From Pseudonocardia sp. SCN 73-27 (GTDB lineage Bacteria; Actinomycetota; Actinomycetes; Mycobacteriales; Pseudonocardiaceae), in the NCBI GenBank assembly GCA_001725415.1, contig MEGH01000018.1, positions 90,545 to 154,544 of the forward strand: 64,000 bases of DNA, read 5' to 3'. Shown piece by piece: positions 5,760 through 17,347 of this stretch; the stretch's first letter is position 1; each line of letters opens with the position of its first letter. The notes below the pieces were generated by a model. That model saw only the letters and a program-made list of their open reading frames with translations. It was not told the origin of the DNA and made no database searches. The position numbers were made by a program, and so were the translations under genes.

Positions 5760-5774
5760 CCCTCGTCGGGTCAG
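5756..5774. terminator. Bidirectional hairpin holding both stop codons of convergent genes
   Basis: CTGACCC-TCGTC-GGGTCAG forms a 7-bp hairpin. The TGA of the methyltransferase gene is in the left arm and the TGA of arsI (as TCA) is in the right arm, so it can terminate transcription from either side. Confidence 0.5.
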
Positions 5775-6232
5775 CCGCAGCACGCTGCCGACGTCTCTGC
5801 CGGAACACCGCACTCGCAGGACGCCTGCGACGACACACCGACCGGATGGATCGACGTCGCGTCGGGTGCGTCGGCCTTGACCGTGTAGACCTCCCACGGC
5901 TCGCGACCCGGGCCGTGCACCCACACCTTGTCCTGCAGCGCGTAGCAGCAGGTCGTGTCGTCCTCGACCCGGGTGAACAGGCCCAGCGCGGACAGTCGCT
6001 CCGTGGCGGCATTCACCTCATCGGTGGTCTCGACCTCGACACCGAGGTGGTCCATGACCGTCGGTTCGTCCGACGCACCCTCGATGAGCACGAGCTTCAA
6101 CGGCGGTTCGGCAACGGCGAAGTTCGCATACCCGGGACGCCGCTTGGCCGGCTCGACGCCGAACAGCGACCGGTAGAAGTCGATCGAAGCCTCCAGGTCG
6201 GAGACACGCAAGGCCAACTGGACACGAGACAT
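5771..6232 (-). CDS. arsI: ArsI-type organoarsenical C-As lyase / CadI-like dioxygenase (copy 1)
   Basis: A 153-residue glyoxalase/vicinal-oxygen-chelate protein. ArsI uses iron and oxygen to cleave the carbon-arsenic bond of trivalent organoarsenicals; the related CadI name comes from cadmium induction. Gln5, His62 and Glu114 fall where the ArsI metal ligands are known, and the substrate-binding thiol pair Cys95-Cys96 is present (TTCCYALQDKVW). The tail adds CxC and CC motifs (CECGVPA, ACCG), which could hold metalloids. The ATG follows an AGGAG site by 5 bases. It is divergent from arsR and about 95 percent identical in sequence to the copy at 13774-14247. Confidence 0.88.
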   Translation of the reverse strand: MSRVQLALRVSDLEASIDFYRSLFGVEPAKRRPGYANFAVAEPPLKLVLIEGASDEPTVMDHLGVEVETTDEVNAATERLSALGLFTRVEDDTTCCYALQDKVWVHGPGREPWEVYTVKADAPDATSIHPVGVSSQASCECGVPAETSAACCG

Positions 6233-6303
6233 GATCGCTCCCTGTTTCGATGGATGTCGATACAGACGTTGCCCCTTGATTCGATACCTGTCAAGATAAC
6301 GGG
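6233..6303. promoter_or_regulatory. Divergent arsI/arsR promoter-operator (copy 1)
   Basis: Towards arsR, TTGCCC (6269-6274), an 18-base spacer and AAGATA (6293-6298) lie 5 bases before the GTG, a leaderless arrangement. Towards arsI, TTGACA (minus, 6289-6294) overlaps that -10. The block with TTTCGATGGATGTCGATACA and GATTCGAT is repeated almost exactly before the second arsI/arsR pair, so it is the likely ArsR operator. Confidence 0.65.
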
Positions 6304-6639
6304 GTGACCCCCTCCGACGAGTGCTGCTCACCGTTGACCGGCGAACCCCTCGGGGAGGAACGCGCCGCCGCGCTGGCGCCGATGTTCAAGGCGATGGGCG
6401 AGCCCGTCCGGCTGCGGCTGCTGTCGCTGATCGCCTCGCACCAGGGCGGCGAGGCCTGCGTGTGCGAGCTGACCGGGGTGTTCGACCTGAGCGGCCCGAC
6501 GATCTCCCACCACCTCAAGGTGCTGCGGGAGGCCGGTCTGATCACCGGTGAGCGGCGCGGGACCTGGGTCTACTACCGCGTCGCGCCCGAGCGGCTCGCG
6601 CAGGTCTCGACGCTGCTCGACCTCGCCCCCGCGACATGA
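6304..6639 (+). CDS. arsR: ArsR/SmtB arsenic-responsive repressor (copy 1)
   Basis: A 111-residue winged-helix repressor. The DNA-recognition helix lies in DLSGPTISHHLKVLREAGLI (residues 61-80) and the wing in GERRGTWVYYRV. Candidate As(III) ligands are the N-terminal pair Cys7-Cys8 and Cys52-x-Cys54 (ACVCEL), the latter matching the ELCVCDL-type metal site of classical ArsR. It should repress arsI and its own operon until arsenite binds. The GTG start sits 5 bases after a -10 box, so the mRNA is probably leaderless. The stop overlaps the arsC start (ATGA). Confidence 0.9.
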   Translation: MTPSDECCSPLTGEPLGEERAAALAPMFKAMGEPVRLRLLSLIASHQGGEACVCELTGVFDLSGPTISHHLKVLREAGLITGERRGTWVYYRVAPERLAQVSTLLDLAPAT

Positions 6640-7058
6640 CCGGGCCGTCGGGCACGCCCGAGGTCCTGTTCGTCTGCGTCCACAACGCCGGCCGCTCCCA
6701 GATGGCCGCCGCGCTGCTGCGCCGTCACGCCGCCGGCCGCGTCCGGGTCACCTCCGCCGGCTCCGCGCCCGCCGACGAGATCAACCCCGCCGTCCGCACT
6801 GTGATGGCCGAGCTCGGGATCGACCTGACCCACGAGTTCCCCAAGAAGCTCCGCACCGACGCCGTCGCGGCCGCCGACGTCGTCATCACCATGGGCTGCG
6901 GCGACGCCTGCCCGGTCTTCCCCGGCACGCGGTACCTCGACTGGCAGATCACCGACCCCGCCGGCCGCAGCGTCGACGAGGTCCGCCCCATCCGCGACGA
7001 GATCGACGGCCGCGTGCGTGACCTGCTCCGCACCCTCGTGACCGGACCGGCGGCCTGA
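6636..7058 (+). CDS. arsC: Arsenate reductase, low-molecular-weight phosphatase type (copy 1)
   Basis: A 140-residue enzyme that reduces arsenate to arsenite. The P-loop is Cys14-X5-Arg20 (CVHNAGRS), the two relay cysteines are Cys88 and Cys92 (MGCGDACPV), and Asp107 in LDWQITDPAG is the general acid. This three-cysteine pattern is that of the thioredoxin-coupled family. Actinobacterial relatives can instead use mycothiol and mycoredoxin, so the electron donor is open. It overlaps arsR by four bases and is followed two bases later by the metallophosphoesterase gene, so all are one transcript. Confidence 0.92.
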   Translation: MTGPSGTPEVLFVCVHNAGRSQMAAALLRRHAAGRVRVTSAGSAPADEINPAVRTVMAELGIDLTHEFPKKLRTDAVAAADVVITMGCGDACPVFPGTRYLDWQITDPAGRSVDEVRPIRDEIDGRVRDLLRTLVTGPAA

Positions 7059-7060
7059 CC

Positions 7061-8047
7061 GTGGCCGGCCCGGGACGCAGCTGTCCGGTGGCCTACCGCT
7101 ACCGGCCCGAGGACCTCGCCGGTGCGGCAGCGTTCACGGCGACGACGCTCTACGTCGTCGGCGGGCTCTACGGCAACACCCACGCCCTCGACGCCGTCCT
7201 CGCCCGCGCCGTCGCCGAACCGGTCCGCCCTGAGATCGTGTTCGACGGGGACTTCCACTACCTCGACGCCGACCCCGACCGGTTCGCCGAGATCGAGGCC
7301 GGCGTCCACGCCCACCACGCGACGCTCGGCAACGTCGAATACGCCCTGACCTGCGACGACGCCACTGTCGGCTGCGGCTGCGACTACCCCGGCTACGTGG
7401 CGGACTCCGTCGTCACCAACTCGAACCTAGTCCTCGACCGGCTCCGCGAGACCAGCCCGGTCGGCTCCCGCGCGCGGCTCGCAGCGCTGCCCCGGCACCT
7501 CACCGTCGAGGTCGGCGGCCACCGCGTCGGCATCGTCCACGGCGACCCCGAGAGCCTCGCCGGGTGGCGGCTCGCGCTCGAAGCCGCCTACCCGTCCGAT
7601 CCTCGCGCCCACGCCGAGACCGGCTTCGACGGCGAGCCCACCACGTCGGCGACCGTCGTCGACTGGTGCAGGCGCGCCGACGTCACCGCGCTGTGCTGCA
7701 CCCACACCGGCCTGCCGTGGATGCAGGATTTCTCCGGGCACGTCGTCGCGAACAACGGCTGCGCCGGCCTCCCGAACTTCACCGGGCAGCGCACCGGGCT
7801 GCTCACCCGGGTGTCCGCGGACCCGCGCCCGCCCGACGACGCCGTGTACGGCACCGTCCACGACGGCCTGCGGATCGACGCCCTGCCCGTCCGCTACGAC
7901 CACGACCGCTGGCGCGCCGACTTCCTCCGCGCCTGGCCGCCCGGCTCCCCCGGGCACGTCAACTACGCCGCCCGCATCGCCGACGGCACCTGGCTCACCG
8001 TCGCCCACGCCACGCGCGGCACCGTCCGCGAGAATCGGGGACCGTGA
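7061..8047 (+). CDS. Arsenic-operon metallophosphoesterase-like protein (copy 1)
   Basis: A 328-residue protein with a degenerate calcineurin-like phosphoesterase core. Motif I, normally SDxHGN, is GGLYGN (34-39), so the DxH ligands are absent. Later motifs persist: DGDFH (62-66), LGNVE (89-93), VHGDPES (159-165) and THTGLP (214-219). Cysteines are frequent: RSCP, GCGC (104-107), DWC, LCC (211-213) and NNGC, all kept in the second copy. A C-terminal extension carries VRYDHDRWR and PGSPGHVNYAARI. It begins two bases after arsC and is translationally coupled to the permease gene. A role in arsenic handling is inferred from position only. An inactive or single-metal enzyme, or an As(III)-binding protein, are options. 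Confidence 0.8.
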   Translation: MAGPGRSCPVAYRYRPEDLAGAAAFTATTLYVVGGLYGNTHALDAVLARAVAEPVRPEIVFDGDFHYLDADPDRFAEIEAGVHAHHATLGNVEYALTCDDATVGCGCDYPGYVADSVVTNSNLVLDRLRETSPVGSRARLAALPRHLTVEVGGHRVGIVHGDPESLAGWRLALEAAYPSDPRAHAETGFDGEPTTSATVVDWCRRADVTALCCTHTGLPWMQDFSGHVVANNGCAGLPNFTGQRTGLLTRVSADPRPPDDAVYGTVHDGLRIDALPVRYDHDRWRADFLRAWPPGSPGHVNYAARIADGTWLTVAHATRGTVRENRGP

Positions 8048-9288
8048 CGTCGCAGCCCCGGCTGGCCCGCCGCCTCACCACCGCCGACGCCGTCGTCATC
8101 GGACTCGGCTCGATGATCGGCGCCGGTGTCTTCGCCGTGTTCGCGCCCGCCGCGGCCGCCGCCGGACGCTGGCTGCTCGTGGGGCTCGCGCTGGCCGCGG
8201 TCGTCGCCTTCTGCAACGCCACCGCGTCGGCCCAGCTCGCCGCCCGGTACCCGACGTCCGGCGGCACCTACGCCTACGGCCGCGAACGGCTCGGACCGTG
8301 GTGGGGGTTCCTCGCGGGGTGGGGGTTCGTCGTCGGCAAGACCGCGAGCTGCGCGGCGATGGCGCTGACCTTCGCCGCCTACGCCGTCCCGCCCGCCTGG
8401 CAACGCCCCGCCGCGGCCGCCGCCGTCGTGCTGCTCGCGCTGGTCAACCTGCGCGGCATCACCCGGACCGCGCAGCTCACCCGCGTCCTCGTCACCGTCG
8501 TGCTGGCCGTCCTCGCGGTGGTCGCGACGGCCGGGATCGTCGCCGCGACCGACCCGTCGCCGGTGTCCGTGCCCGCCGTCGGCGGCAGCGTGTACGGCGT
8601 CCTCCAGTCCGCCGGTCTGCTGTTCTTCGCGTTCGCCGGCTACGCCCGCATCGCGACGCTCGGCGAGGAGGTCCGCGACCCGCGCCGCACCATCCCCCGC
8701 GCGGTGAGCCTCGCCCTCGGGCTGGTCGTCGCCCTCTACGTCGCGCTCGCCGTCGTCGTGCTGCTCGCGCTCGGGTCGGGTGCCCTCGCGTCGTCCACGG
8801 CTCCTCTTGCCGACGTCGCACGCGCCGCCGGGTGGGGCTGGGCCGTCCCGGTCGTCGCCGTCGGCGGTGCTGCCGGTGCCCTGGGCGCACTCCTCGCCCT
8901 GATCACCGGCCTCGGCCGGACCTCTCTCGCGATGGCCCGGGAGGGCGACCTCCCCCGCCCCCTCGCCGCGGTGTCGACCCGGTTCCACGTGCCGCACCGC
9001 GCCGAGATCGCCGTCGCCGTCGTCGTGGTGGCGCTCGTGCTCACCGTCGACCTCCGCGAGGTCATCGGCTTCTCGTCGTTCGGCGTGCTCGTCTACTACC
9101 TCGTCGCCAACGCCGCGGCCCGCACCCAGACCGGTGACGACCGTCGCTACCCGCGGTGGTTGCAGGTCGTCGGTGCCGTCGGGTGCGTCGTCCTGGTCGC
9201 GACGCTGCCGTGGCAGTCGATCGTCGTCGGCGCCGCGGTGTTCGTCGTCGGCATCGGGTACCGGCTCGTCGTCGTGGGTCGCACCTGA
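8044..9288 (+). CDS. APC-superfamily permease
   Basis: A 414-residue membrane transporter with about 11-12 hydrophobic helices. The N-terminal LTTADAVVIGLGSMIGAGVF is the APC signature with its GxGxxIGxGxF substrate-binding bend; SGGTYAYGRERLGPWWGFLAG follows, and LLFFAFAGYARIATLGEEV is the TM6 region. These fit the amino acid-polyamine-organocation family. The GTG start overlaps the stop of the metallophosphoesterase gene (GTGA), so it is cotranslated with the arsenic cassette. The second cassette lacks it and has an aquaglyceroporin instead. The substrate is unknown; it could be an amino acid or thiol precursor, or the gene may just be downstream by chance. Confidence 0.85.
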   Translation: MTSQPRLARRLTTADAVVIGLGSMIGAGVFAVFAPAAAAAGRWLLVGLALAAVVAFCNATASAQLAARYPTSGGTYAYGRERLGPWWGFLAGWGFVVGKTASCAAMALTFAAYAVPPAWQRPAAAAAVVLLALVNLRGITRTAQLTRVLVTVVLAVLAVVATAGIVAATDPSPVSVPAVGGSVYGVLQSAGLLFFAFAGYARIATLGEEVRDPRRTIPRAVSLALGLVVALYVALAVVVLLALGSGALASSTAPLADVARAAGWGWAVPVVAVGGAAGALGALLALITGLGRTSLAMAREGDLPRPLAAVSTRFHVPHRAEIAVAVVVVALVLTVDLREVIGFSSFGVLVYYLVANAAARTQTGDDRRYPRWLQVVGAVGCVVLVATLPWQSIVVGAAVFVVGIGYRLVVVGRT

Positions 9289-13773: not shown

Positions 13774-14247
13774 TCAGCCGCAGCACTTCACGGCTGCATC
13801 CTCGCTCACGCCGGCCGGGACACCGCACTCGCACGACGCGTCGGGCGACACCCCGACGGGATGGATCGTTGTGGCGTCGGGTGCGTCAGCCTTGACCGTG
13901 TAGACCTCCCATGGCTCGCGTCCGGGTCCGTGCACCCACACCTTGTCCTGCAACGCGTAGCAGCACGTCGTGTCGTCCTCGACCTGGGTGAACAGGCCCA
14001 GCGCGGACAGTCGTTCGGTCGCCGCGTTCACCTCGTCGGTCGTCTCGACCTCGACACCGAGGTGGTCCATGGCCGTCGGCTCGCCGGCCGCGCCCTCGAT
14101 GAGCACGAGCTTCAACGGCGGTTCGGCAACTGCGAAGTTCGCGTACCCGGGGCGCCGCTTGGCCGGCTCGACGCCGAACAGCGACCGGTAGAAGTCGATC
14201 GAGGCCTCTAGATCGGAGACGCGCAAGGCCAACTGGACGCGAGACAT
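13774..14247 (-). CDS. arsI: ArsI-type organoarsenical C-As lyase / CadI-like dioxygenase (copy 2)
   Basis: A 157-residue near-duplicate of the protein at 5771-6232, with the same metal triad (Gln5, His62, Glu114) and thiol pair Cys95-Cys96. Differences cluster in EGAAGEPTAMDHLG, FTQVEDD and the tail, which here reads VSPDASCECGVPAGVSED and ends KCCG. It should demethylate or degrade trivalent organoarsenicals inside the cell. It is divergent from arsR copy 2 through a nearly identical operator region. It lies at the left edge of the island, about 120 bases inside the att repeat. Confidence 0.88.
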   Translation of the reverse strand: MSRVQLALRVSDLEASIDFYRSLFGVEPAKRRPGYANFAVAEPPLKLVLIEGAAGEPTAMDHLGVEVETTDEVNAATERLSALGLFTQVEDDTTCCYALQDKVWVHGPGREPWEVYTVKADAPDATTIHPVGVSPDASCECGVPAGVSEDAAVKCCG

Positions 14248-14332: not shown

Positions 14333-14713
14333 GTGTCGAAGCAATCCCTGCCGGTCGTTGACGTGACCGGACCCGGCGACGTTGACGCCGATGAGTGCTG
14401 CCCGCCGCTGACCAGCGAGCCCCTCGGCGAAGAGCGCGCGGTCGAGCTGGCCCGGGTGTTCAAGGCGATGGGTGACCCCGTCCGGCTGCGCCTGCTGTCG
14501 CTGATCGCCTCGAACCAGGGCGGGGAAGCATGCGTGTGCGAGCTGACCGGGGTGTTCGACCTGAGCGGTCCGACGATCTCCCACCACCTGAAGGTGCTGC
14601 GGGAGGCCGGCCTGATCACCGGTGAGCGCCGTGGGACCTGGGTCTACTACCGGGTGGTGCCCGAACGGCTCGCGCAGGTCTCGACGCTGCTCGACCTCGC
14701 CCCGACGAGCTGA
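14333..14713 (+). CDS. arsR: ArsR/SmtB arsenic-responsive repressor (copy 2)
   Basis: A 126-residue repressor almost identical to copy 1 from the pair of cysteines (DECCPPL) onward. It keeps CVC in EACVCELTGVF, the recognition helix DLSGPTISHHLKVLREAGLI and the wing GERRGTWVYYRV. It has about 15 extra N-terminal residues because the GTG lies further upstream relative to the domain. Since the recognition helices are identical, the two ArsR proteins should cross-regulate both cassettes. It heads the operon arsR-aquaglyceroporin-arsC-metallophosphoesterase. Confidence 0.9.
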   Translation: MSKQSLPVVDVTGPGDVDADECCPPLTSEPLGEERAVELARVFKAMGDPVRLRLLSLIASNQGGEACVCELTGVFDLSGPTISHHLKVLREAGLITGERRGTWVYYRVVPERLAQVSTLLDLAPTS

Positions 14714-14719
14714 CCCGCC

Positions 14720-15445
14720 GTGACCACACTCCCGCTCCCCCGTCGGCTGCTCGCCGAGACGGTCGGGACCGCGCTGCTCGTGACGATCGTCGTCGGCTCC
14801 GGGATCGCCGCCTCCCGGCTGTCCCCCGACGACACCGGGCTGCAGCTCCTGCAGAACTCGATCACGACTGCGCTCGGCCTCGCCGTGCTGATCCTGCTGT
14901 TCGGCCCCGTGTCAGGCGCGCACTTCAACCCGGTGGTCACGGCCTCCGCCTGGCTGCTCGACCGGCGCCAAGGCCGCGATGACCGTCTCACCGGCCGTGA
15001 CGTCGTCGCCTACACGCTGGCGCAGACCACCGGGGCGGTCCTCGGCGCTCTGCTGGCCAACGCCATGTTCACCCTCCCGCTCGGCCAGATCGCCACGACG
15101 ACCCGCACCGGCTCCGGGCTCTGGCTCGGCGAGATCGTCGCCACCGCCGGCCTCGTCGCCCTGATCTTCGCCCTGGCCCGCTCCGGTCGCGGCCCGCTCT
15201 CCGCAGCCGCCGTCGGCGCCTACATCGGCGCCGCCTACTGGTTCACCTCCTCGACCTCGTTCGCCAACCCCGCAGTGACGGTCGGGCGCATGTTCAGCGA
15301 CACCTTCGCCGGCATCGCCCCGGCCTCGGTGCCCGCGTTCGTCATCGCCCAGCTCATCGGTGCGCTGCTCGGCCTCGGCCTCGTCGTCGCGCTCTACCCC
15401 CGCGCCATCCACAACTCCGCCCGGCCCGTTCCGACAGGGAAATGA
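14720..15445 (+). CDS. aqpS: Aquaglyceroporin (AqpS-like arsenite channel)
   Basis: A 241-residue MIP-family channel with six membrane helices and two half-helices. The pore motifs are HFNPV (NPV at 70-72) and FANPAVTVGR (NPA at 183-185, selectivity Arg190). Replacement of the first NPA by NPV is seen in several arsenic-operon channels. AqpS in Sinorhizobium meliloti lets arsenite made by ArsC leave the cell down its gradient, and the position between arsR and arsC supports the same role. It replaces an ArsB or Acr3 pump. The stop overlaps arsC (ATGA). Confidence 0.88.
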   Translation: MTTLPLPRRLLAETVGTALLVTIVVGSGIAASRLSPDDTGLQLLQNSITTALGLAVLILLFGPVSGAHFNPVVTASAWLLDRRQGRDDRLTGRDVVAYTLAQTTGAVLGALLANAMFTLPLGQIATTTRTGSGLWLGEIVATAGLVALIFALARSGRGPLSAAAVGAYIGAAYWFTSSTSFANPAVTVGRMFSDTFAGIAPASVPAFVIAQLIGALLGLGLVVALYPRAIHNSARPVPTGK

Positions 15446-15864
15446 CCATGACCGACCCCACGCCCGAGGTCCTGTTCGTCTGCGTCCACAACGCCGGCCG
15501 CTCCCAGATGGCCGCCGCGCTGCTGCACCACCACGCCGCCGGCCGCGTCCGGGTCACCTCCGCCGGCTCCGCACCCGCCGACGAGATCAACCCCGCAGTC
15601 CGCGCCGTCATGGCCGAGCTCGGGATCGACCTCACCCACGAGTTCCCCAAGAAGCTCACCACCGACGCCGTGCAGGCCGCCGACGTCGTCATCACCATGG
15701 GCTGCGGCGACGCCTGCCCGGTCTTCCCCGGCACGCAATACCTGGACTGGCAGCTCACCGACCCCGCCGGCCGCAGCGTCGACGACGTCCGCCCCATCCG
15801 CGACGAGATCGACGGCCGCGTCCGCGACCTGCTCCGCACCCTCGTGACCGGACCGGCGGTCTGA
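15442..15864 (+). CDS. arsC: Arsenate reductase, low-molecular-weight phosphatase type (copy 2)
   Basis: A 140-residue reductase nearly identical to copy 1. It has Cys14-X5-Arg20 in the P-loop, relay cysteines Cys88 and Cys92 and the acid in LDWQLTDPAGRS. Differences are few (for example LLHHHAAG for LLRRHAAG, KKLTTDAVQAA for KKLRTDAVAAA). It converts arsenate to arsenite for exit via the adjacent aquaglyceroporin. It overlaps that gene by four bases and is followed three bases later by the metallophosphoesterase gene. Confidence 0.92.
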   Translation: MTMTDPTPEVLFVCVHNAGRSQMAAALLHHHAAGRVRVTSAGSAPADEINPAVRAVMAELGIDLTHEFPKKLTTDAVQAADVVITMGCGDACPVFPGTQYLDWQLTDPAGRSVDDVRPIRDEIDGRVRDLLRTLVTGPAV

Positions 15865-15867
15865 GGC

Positions 15868-16884
15868 GTGGCCGGCCCGGGACGCAGCTGCCCCATCGAC
15901 TACCGCTACCAACCCGACGACCTCGCCGGGCCGGCCACCTTCACCACCCCCACGCTCTACATCGTCGGCGGCCTCTACGGGAACACCCACGCCCTCGACG
16001 CCGTCCTCGCCCGGGCCGCCTCGGAGCCCGTCCGTCCGGAGATCGTGTTCAACGGGGACTTCCACTACCTCGACACGGACCCCGACCGGTTCGCCGCGAT
16101 CGAGGCCGGCGTCCACGCCCACCACGCCACGCTCGGGAACGTCGAGTACGCCCTCACCAGCACCGACGACACCGTCGGCTGCGGCTGCGACTACCCGGCC
16201 TACGTCGCCGACGACGTCGTCACCAACTCCAACCTCGTCCTCGACCAGCTCCGCGACACCGCCCCGCTCACCGACGCGGGCCGTGCCCGACTCGCCGCGC
16301 TCCCCCGACACCTCACCGTCGACGTCGGCGGCCACCGGGTCGGCATCGTCCACGGCGACCCGGAGAGCCTCGCCGGCTGGCGGCTCGCGCTCGAGGCTCT
16401 CGACCCGCCCGACGAACGCGCCCGCACCGAGACCGGTTTCGACGGGGAGACGACCAGCTCGGAGACCGTCGTCGACTGGTGCCTTCGCGCTGACGTCACC
16501 GCGCTCTGCTGCACCCACACCGGCCTGCCCCACGCCCAGGACCACAACGAGAGCGATGATCGCGGCGGCCGGCGGCACCTGGTGGTCAACAACGGATGCG
16601 CCGGCCTCCCCAACTACGCCGGGCAGCGCTTCGGGGTCATGACCCGCCTCTCGGCCGACCCCCACCCGCCGGCGGACAGCCTGTACGGGATCACCCTCGA
16701 CGGCCTCAGGTTCGACGCGATCCCGGTTCGCTACGACCACGACCGCTGGCACGACGACTTCCTGCGCGCCTGGCCGCCCGGCTCCCCCGGCCACATCAAC
16801 TACGCCGCCCGCATCGACGCCGGCCCCTGGTTGACGGTCGAGCACTCCGCGCGTGGACGCGTGTCGCCCTCTCCGGTGGGCTGA
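15868..16884 (+). CDS. Arsenic-operon metallophosphoesterase-like protein (copy 2)
   Basis: A 338-residue paralogue of the protein at 7061-8047. It keeps the altered motif I (GGLYGN), NGDFHYLD, LGNVEYAL, VHGDPES and CTHTGLP. It also keeps the cysteines RSCP, GCGCDYP, DWC, LCC and NNGCAG. It has a charged insertion (HNESDDRGGRR) after the last phosphoesterase motif that copy 1 lacks. Its position right after arsC is the same. Function is unknown; retention of the arsC neighbour in both cassettes is the only functional clue. The gene ends close to the truncated integrase, which marks the edge of the cargo. Confidence 0.8.
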   Translation: MAGPGRSCPIDYRYQPDDLAGPATFTTPTLYIVGGLYGNTHALDAVLARAASEPVRPEIVFNGDFHYLDTDPDRFAAIEAGVHAHHATLGNVEYALTSTDDTVGCGCDYPAYVADDVVTNSNLVLDQLRDTAPLTDAGRARLAALPRHLTVDVGGHRVGIVHGDPESLAGWRLALEALDPPDERARTETGFDGETTSSETVVDWCLRADVTALCCTHTGLPHAQDHNESDDRGGRRHLVVNNGCAGLPNYAGQRFGVMTRLSADPHPPADSLYGITLDGLRFDAIPVRYDHDRWHDDFLRAWPPGSPGHINYAARIDAGPWLTVEHSARGRVSPSPVG

Positions 16885-16900
16885 GCCCACCTCGGGACCT

Positions 16901-17347
16901 GGTGCGATCTCCTCGCGGCGCGAGGAGCGCCAGCTCAAGCACCGCGCTGTGGGTGAGACCCGGATCGTGCCCTGCGCGCCGGCGCTGACCGAGCTGTTGC
17001 ACCGTCACCTCGAACAGTTCGGCAACGACGACAGCGGGCTCCTGTTCCGCGGTGTGCGGGGTGGCCAGCTCTCCGAGGGCACGTACTGCCGCGTGTGGCG
17101 CAAGGCCCGGAAGGACGCCCTCACGCCTGCGGAGGCTGCTTCTCCCCTGGCGCGCCGGCCCTACGACCTCCGGCACGCCGCGGTGTCGACGTGGCTCAAC
17201 GCCGGCGTTCCCTCGACGCAGGTCGCCGAGTGGGCCGGACACAGCGTCGCGGTGCTCCACCACATCTACGCGAAGTGCATCGTCGGACAGGACGAGCTGT
17301 CCCGCCGGCGGATCGCGGCTGCGCTCGACGAGGCGCCCGATGCGTGA
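16901..17347 (+). pseudogene. Truncated tyrosine (phage-type) integrase
   Basis: The frame encodes the C-terminal catalytic half only: QLKHRAVGETRIVPCAPAL, RPYDLRHAAVSTWLNAG, and QVAEWAGHSVAVLHHIYAKC. The second catalytic Arg, the following His, the GHS His and the nucleophile Tyr are visible. The arm-binding domain and the first catalytic Arg are absent, because the frame begins just after the metallophosphoesterase gene without a proper start. It lies 130 bases from the att repeat and points at it, as island integrases do. It should be inactive. Confidence 0.8.

Follow-up and report, generated by a model that had tools for sequence, protein, structure and literature searches.

Two metallophosphoesterase-fold proteins in arsenic operons of Pseudonocardia sp. 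SCN 73-27: one metal site lost, a Car1-like cysteine pair kept, and a candidate role in reducing pentavalent arsenic

What does a metallophosphoesterase do in an arsenic operon when half of its metal-binding site is missing? The question is raised by two paralogous genes in a 64,000-nucleotide stretch of Pseudonocardia sp. SCN 73-27 (contig MEGH01000018.1, positions 90,545 to 154,544; hereafter the window), each of which directly follows an arsenate reductase gene (arsC). Here we report that the encoded metallophosphoesterase-fold proteins (MPPs) have lost metal site 1 and carry an invariant Cys-Gly-Cys (CGC) pair at the position of the essential cysteines of the arsenate reductase Car1. As far as sequences can tell, they are probably thiol-based arsenic enzymes of a new sub-type. 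We put at about even chances the more specific reading that they are thiol/disulfide reductases of pentavalent arsenic on a one-metal MPP scaffold, forming a divergent branch of the CGC MPPs that include Car1.

The initial annotation of the window had placed the two paralogous MPP-like open reading frames (ORFs) 2-3 bases after arsC. Both the coordinates and the gaps were confirmed (2 bases in A, where arsC ends at 7058; 3 bases in B, where arsC ends at 15864):

7061..8047, + strand: MPP copy A, 328 residues, CGC protein of the metallophosphoesterase fold that lacks metal site 1
15868..16884, + strand: MPP copy B, 338 residues, paralogue of MPP A

The two proteins are identical at 254 of 328 aligned residues, and the whole genome contains exactly these two copies at E<=0.001. 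Neither matched an NCBIfam family at E<=0.01, and with 17.9 and 16.4 bits they did not reach the curated cut-off of 27 of the Pfam family Metallophos_2 (calcineurin-like phosphoesterase). Homologues of the same type (window-type MPPs) were compared across 14 loci (A, B, L003, L004, L005, L006, L007, L011, L038-L042 and L032); L008, L012 and L053 encode a protein already represented and were not counted again.

In both window proteins GGLYGN stands in place of SDxHGN, as had been noted, and the motifs GD, GNxE and HGD are present; HTGxP, also listed among the kept motifs, is in fact an altered GHxH in which the second His is replaced by Gly. GGLY for SDxH and THTG, THTC or SHTC for GHTH were found in 14 of 14 window-type rows. 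All of these rows have lost each ligand that belongs to metal site 1 alone, namely both the Asp and the His of DxH as well as the last His of GHxH. The site-2 ligands D64, N91, H160 and H215 are retained, and a 13-row homologue alignment is invariant at C8, C105, C107, D64, H66, N91, H160, D162 and H215. The cysteines of GCGC, LCC, DWC and NNGC, which had been described as conserved, are common to seven Pseudonocardia proteins, but only C8 and the CGC pair are invariant in the 13 rows (C203 7/13, C212 and C213 10/13 each, C234 7/13). On this alignment, the assumption that all of the listed cysteines have a function was rejected.

The fold assignment is consistent with structure prediction. An AlphaFold2 model built from an alignment of seven close sequences had a mean predicted local distance difference test score (pLDDT) of 57.9 and a predicted template modelling score (pTM) of 0.68, and a Foldseek search with this model recovered the MPP fold among solved structures, with modest scores (best match 1nnw, E 1.2e-5, TM 0.40 by query). 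When the window protein or the 13-row profile was searched by sequence against solved structures, nothing meaningful was found. Viral relatives fetched for the alignment were ordinary MPPs without CGC, four of which were misaligned at the C-terminal motif. The window MPPs share their fold with ordinary MPPs of known structure (1nnw, the Ap4A hydrolase SapH 3qfm, and 3rqz). The structure that the Car1-type profile matches best, 3rqz, differs from the window MPPs in having intact DxH and GHxH motifs and no CGC in the printed alignment.

The initial annotation knew of no arsenic function for proteins of this type. Such a function has been described: Car1 is a metallophosphoesterase according to the title of Shen et al. 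(2024, Mol Microbiol 122:201-212), and a passage of PMC12124457 reports MPPs of ars operons that share about 40% identity with Car1, the As(V) reductase of Rufibacter tibetensis, which requires Cys74 and Cys76. In 14 of 14 window-type rows C105 and C107 align with Cys74 and Cys76 of Car1-type MPPs, and a comparison of the window-type and Car1-type profiles placed CGC on CGC with 98.7% probability (E 4.5e-16). The earlier suggestion of a thiol-based arsenic site is therefore supported at the level of the alignment. Likeness to Car1 extends to the MPP fold, the location of the CxC pair after the GNxD/E motif and the setting in ars operons. The difference lies in the metal centre: Hymenobacteraceae relatives of Car1 (Car1's own sequence was not part of the comparison) have both DxH and GHxH, and with them two metal sites, whereas the window MPPs lack site 1. 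The latter also carry a C-terminal extension, the motifs GDxH and HGDxES and, at the N-terminus, about 27 further residues that include Cys8. We do not file the window MPPs as Car1-type, since the full DxH/GHxH site was looked for and is absent, although they probably work like a Car1-type enzyme.

Car1-type proteins themselves are closely tied to arsenic genes. Searching plasmids with an actinobacterial protein of the Car1 type gave 84 records, of which the best 50 were listed and 11 were examined. Six of the 11 have CGC at residues 74/76 (75/77 in Pontibacter); each of these six is part of an ars operon that also encodes ArsR together with ACR3 or ArsM, and three of them belong, like Rufibacter, to the Hymenobacteraceae. 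At the Car1-type actinobacterial loci L045, L048, L050 and L051, matches to ArsR, ACR3, ArsM or ArsC were found close by. Tandem MPP pairs occur in ars operons of Mucilaginibacter and Pedobacter (L056, 4498-5990; L127, 3498-5009), the first member with CGC and the second without. A figure legend in PMC6620896 names an MPE (metallophosphoesterase) in the ars gene clusters of Alkalilimnicola and Thioalkalivibrio.

A further group of CGC proteins comprises MPP domains fused to a radical S-adenosylmethionine (SAM) domain (L043, L044, L046, L047, L049) and a Roseomonas MPP without this fusion (L033). Site 1 is lost in these wherever the columns are readable, and they are shorter than the window MPPs and have no N-terminal Cys8. 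The radical SAM domain resembles the Rv1681 family (263-271 bits, below the cut-off of 380, in the three of five proteins scanned), and TIGR04283-like glycosyltransferases are encoded in the same stretch at all five fusion loci. In a tree calculated with the trait columns left out, and without L043 (motif I unaligned, gaps), these proteins group with the window type at a support of 91/86 (not starred); the window type is held together at 100/100, and long branches are present. Since the tree joins the window-type, radical-SAM-fused and Roseomonas MPPs, all of which lack site 1, this site may have been lost only once, with an uncertain root. On the most economical account, the window MPPs would be CGC redox enzymes that act on an arsenic species and descend from Car1-type ancestors, with a single metal site remaining.

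The neighbourhoods of window-type genes point to arsenic. An arsenic gene is adjacent to or fused with the MPP at 12 of the 14 loci, contrary to the possibility that homologues lie mostly outside arsenic loci, and the partners differ (ArsR, ArsC, ACR3, MIP, ArsS) across Actinomycetota and Burkholderia. arsC is directly upstream at six loci (A, B, L007, L038, L039, L040), and arsR without arsC at L003, L006 and L011 (the latter recognised by eye in the reading frame). At L041 an ArsR-ArsC fusion protein is encoded downstream of the MPP, and at L039 the ACR3 matches are in separate pieces. An actinobacterium (L042, genome G420) has MPP and ArsS in one protein (TIGR04167, 357.3 bits, cut-off 300). 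On a Burkholderia glumae plasmid (L032) arsS lies 11 bases upstream of the MPP, near glycosyltransferases named for arsenosugars and a gene annotated as S-methyl-5'-thioadenosine phosphorylase. L004 has just a piece of a CadI-like gene and of arsC, and no arsenic gene among those sought was found near L005. One reference sequence of this neighbourhood scan, a Paraclostridium arsM, had a stop in its translation and bears on none of the conclusions. Given two copies genome-wide, pairwise ratios of non-synonymous to synonymous substitution rates (dN/dS) of 0.30-0.62 among 11 homologues, and arsC directly upstream at six of 14 loci, we regard the association as more than chance.

The neighbours at L032 also speak for a different activity, namely that the MPPs are one-metal hydrolases which remove phosphate or arsenate from a small molecule, such as an arsenylated metabolite or an arsenosugar-type sugar phosphate, with CGC in a structural role. 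The MPP fold and the invariance of D64, H66, N91, H160, D162 and H215 would suit such an enzyme, but no ligand specific to metal site 1 is left in any of the 14 rows and the invariant CGC aligns with a pair required for redox chemistry in Car1. Hydrolysis of an arsenylated or phosphorylated intermediate, proposed in the initial annotation, is less likely because all of these ligands are gone, and we consider the hydrolase quite unlikely.

The distribution of the window type is narrow. All six loci from named relatives were from Pseudonocardia, and 11 of 62 Pseudonocardia genomes encode the protein. With five candidates scored per genome, it was found in three of 396 genomes of a phylum sample, the window's own genome included, and in one of 394 of a class sample, which was the own genome. 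The 49 matching plasmid records comprise 47 of B. glumae (annotated as 'hypothetical protein' in 46), one of Roseomonas and one Azonexus fragment. The last (L034, 8001-8285) is a lone 94-residue piece of the window-type C-terminus near genes annotated as large and small subunits of arsenate reductase (azurin).

Within the window the two MPP genes belong to similar arsenic loci about 9 kb apart, whose other genes are as follows, in the order in which they stand.

Locus A, with MPP A between arsC and the permease gene:
5771..6331, - strand: ArsI/CadI-family VOC protein, divergent from operon A (NF041414, 195.5 bits, cut-off 116); start uncertain, as the listed ORF overlaps arsR A
6304..6639, + strand: arsR copy A, ArsR/SmtB regulator
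6636..7058, + strand: arsC copy A, LMWPc-type arsenate reductase (Pfam LMWPc, E 4.9e-22)
8044..9288, + strand: APC-family amino-acid permease, GTG start

Locus B, with MPP B following arsC:
13774..14247, - strand: ArsI/CadI-family VOC protein, divergent from operon B (NF041414, 195.3 bits, cut-off 116)
14333..14713, + strand: arsR copy B
14720..15445, + strand: MIP-family channel (aquaporin-like), between arsR and arsC
15442..15864, + strand: arsC copy B, LMWPc-type (Pfam LMWPc, E 9.9e-22), 127 of 140 residues identical to arsC A

Operon A is tightly coupled: the start of arsC overlaps the arsR stop by 4 nt, arsC and the MPP gene are 2 nt apart, and the permease gene overlaps the MPP stop by 4 nt. 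The permease, an unusual partner for an arsenic operon, is the probable last gene. The last bases of the MPP B gene are shared with a 164-residue ORF (16853-17347, + strand), which on visual inspection looks like the C-terminal portion of an integrase and may mark an island edge. An ordinary MPP with a match to cAMP phosphodiesterases is encoded separately (723-1463, + strand), outside the arsenic loci. A third locus of the genome carries ACR3 and arsC-like genes, and no MPP was found within the 18 kb scanned there.

ArsC of the low-molecular-weight (LMW) phosphatase type reduces As(V) by cysteine chemistry. It is encoded in the same operons as the MPP, has an unrelated fold, and is outlasted by the MPP in several Pseudonocardia loci. 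At L003 and L006 the stretch in front of the MPP gene contains the beginning of a MIP gene resembling the one in locus B (E 1.4e-6 and 9e-11), and at L004 it contains an internal piece of arsC (E 1.6e-16); 200 plain base shuffles per stretch gave best values of 2.5e-4 to 1e-3 over five stretches. arsC-tail remnants before L005 and L011, suggestive by eye, were not counted, as shuffles did as well or better (in this search the best E in arsC was 0.019 at L005, and L011 had no match in the arsC tail). The MPPs of L003, L004, L005, L006 and L011 are full length (326-335 residues, no stops), and dN/dS among these five (0.30-0.41) resembles that among the arsC-bearing L038-L040 (0.33-0.39). One deletion event might be common to L003 and L006; the tree places the arsC-bearing MPPs A and B with L003 at 100/96. 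When the window ArsC served as query, the best E-values were 6.5e-4 in G023, 0.08 in G031 and 0.04 in G473, while G017 and G458 encode ArsC elsewhere; all of these are draft or partly draft genomes.

These genomes bear on the main rival explanation, in which the MPP is a thiol-based binding protein or chaperone for As(III) or methyl-As(III): C8, C105 and C107 would form a trap that hands arsenic from ArsC to an exporter or to ArsS, and the MPP fold would be a relic. The three invariant cysteines, the position of arsC directly upstream at six of 14 loci, the loss of metal site 1 and the fusion to ArsS, which would gain from a carrier, all fit this idea. However, the MPP persists in draft genomes that have neither a close match to ArsC nor an ACR3 over the cut-off, CGC sits where Car1 has its catalytic pair, and the site-2 ligands are all invariant, although a pure thiol trap could do without them. 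A carrier is therefore unlikely in our view.

For a reductase of pentavalent arsenic the following cycle may be proposed. The remaining metal at site 2 would hold the arsenic oxyanion, and one cysteine of the C105/C107 pair would attack As(V). The other would resolve the intermediate, with As(III) released as the C105-C107 disulfide forms, and the enzyme would be re-reduced by a thiol system of the cell, in which the invariant C8 may take part. The substrate in Pseudonocardia would most likely be arsenate, beside or in place of ArsC, and may be a pentavalent organoarsenical where the MPP is joined to ArsS. A version in which the MPP is a reductase of pentavalent mono- or dimethylarsenicals (MAs(V)/DMAs(V)) that supplies trivalent arsenic to carbon-arsenic chemistry (ArsS, ArsI/CadI-family protein) appears rather unlikely. 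We retain an organoarsenical substrate because of the links to ArsS, fused in G420 and adjacent in B. glumae, and to the divergently encoded ArsI/CadI family in Pseudonocardia. We know of no dedicated bacterial MAs(V)/DMAs(V) reductase, and a phrase search of the openly licensed PubMed Central literature gave no paper on one. In the same literature no title, abstract or passage dealt with the window-type sub-family, a weak absence given that scope.

Several observations weigh against a reductase of pentavalent arsenic. Operons A and B already encode ArsC, and a PF03960 ArsC-like protein is present, one each, in all five genomes searched (G017, G023, G031, G458, G473), so that another reductase is possible and a simple replacement story is disfavoured. 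No ACR3 over the cut-off was found in G023, G031 and G473, a weak absence in drafts; with a reductase, these genomes would produce As(III) but lack that exporter (G023 and G031 gave an ArsB-family match, G473 none). Car1 is said to have a two-metal site and to be coupled to thioredoxin, and its chemistry may not carry over to MPPs without site 1. pLDDT is below 50 over residues 65-140 of the model, CGC loop included. A single clade of CGC proteins (Car1-type, radical-SAM-fused and window-type) against five non-CGC rows was neither shown nor rejected (approximately unbiased test, p-AU 0.07). The Roseomonas protein lies by radical SAM and phosphonate-transport genes, with no classic ars operon. 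Among the other five plasmid MPPs examined, that of Flammeovirga adjoins arsA and ACR3 yet has no CxC, and those of Halapricum and Agrobacterium have neither CxC nor annotated ars neighbours. The last two, from Trichormus (CDC) and Picosynechococcus (CEC), have no annotated ars neighbours, and CxC alone was rejected as a mark of arsenic function.

These cyanobacterial plasmid proteins (L124, 3498-4307; L126, 3498-4322) carry the pair at residues 74/76. The Trichormus gene adjoins GTP-binding-protein and hisI genes, the Picosynechococcus gene is near folE and hemB, and a role in metal limitation may be indicated. Together with L005 and its lack of a nearby arsenic gene, they lend something to the view that the window-type MPP is a passenger on arsenic islands, serving general redox or metal stress. 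We hold this to be very unlikely, as the link to arsenic at 12 of 14 loci runs through a variety of partners in Actinomycetota and Burkholderia.

The loss of arsC beside an intact MPP gene is a natural experiment on enzyme replacement. If the MPPs do reduce pentavalent arsenic, the fold of a hydrolase was first turned to arsenic redox chemistry, and half of the metal site disappeared afterwards although the two cysteines stayed. The extent to which this chemistry depends on the metal centre would then be open to experiment. Such an activity would also give a name to an unannotated family that connects simple operons for arsenic resistance with organoarsenical pathways of the ArsS type.
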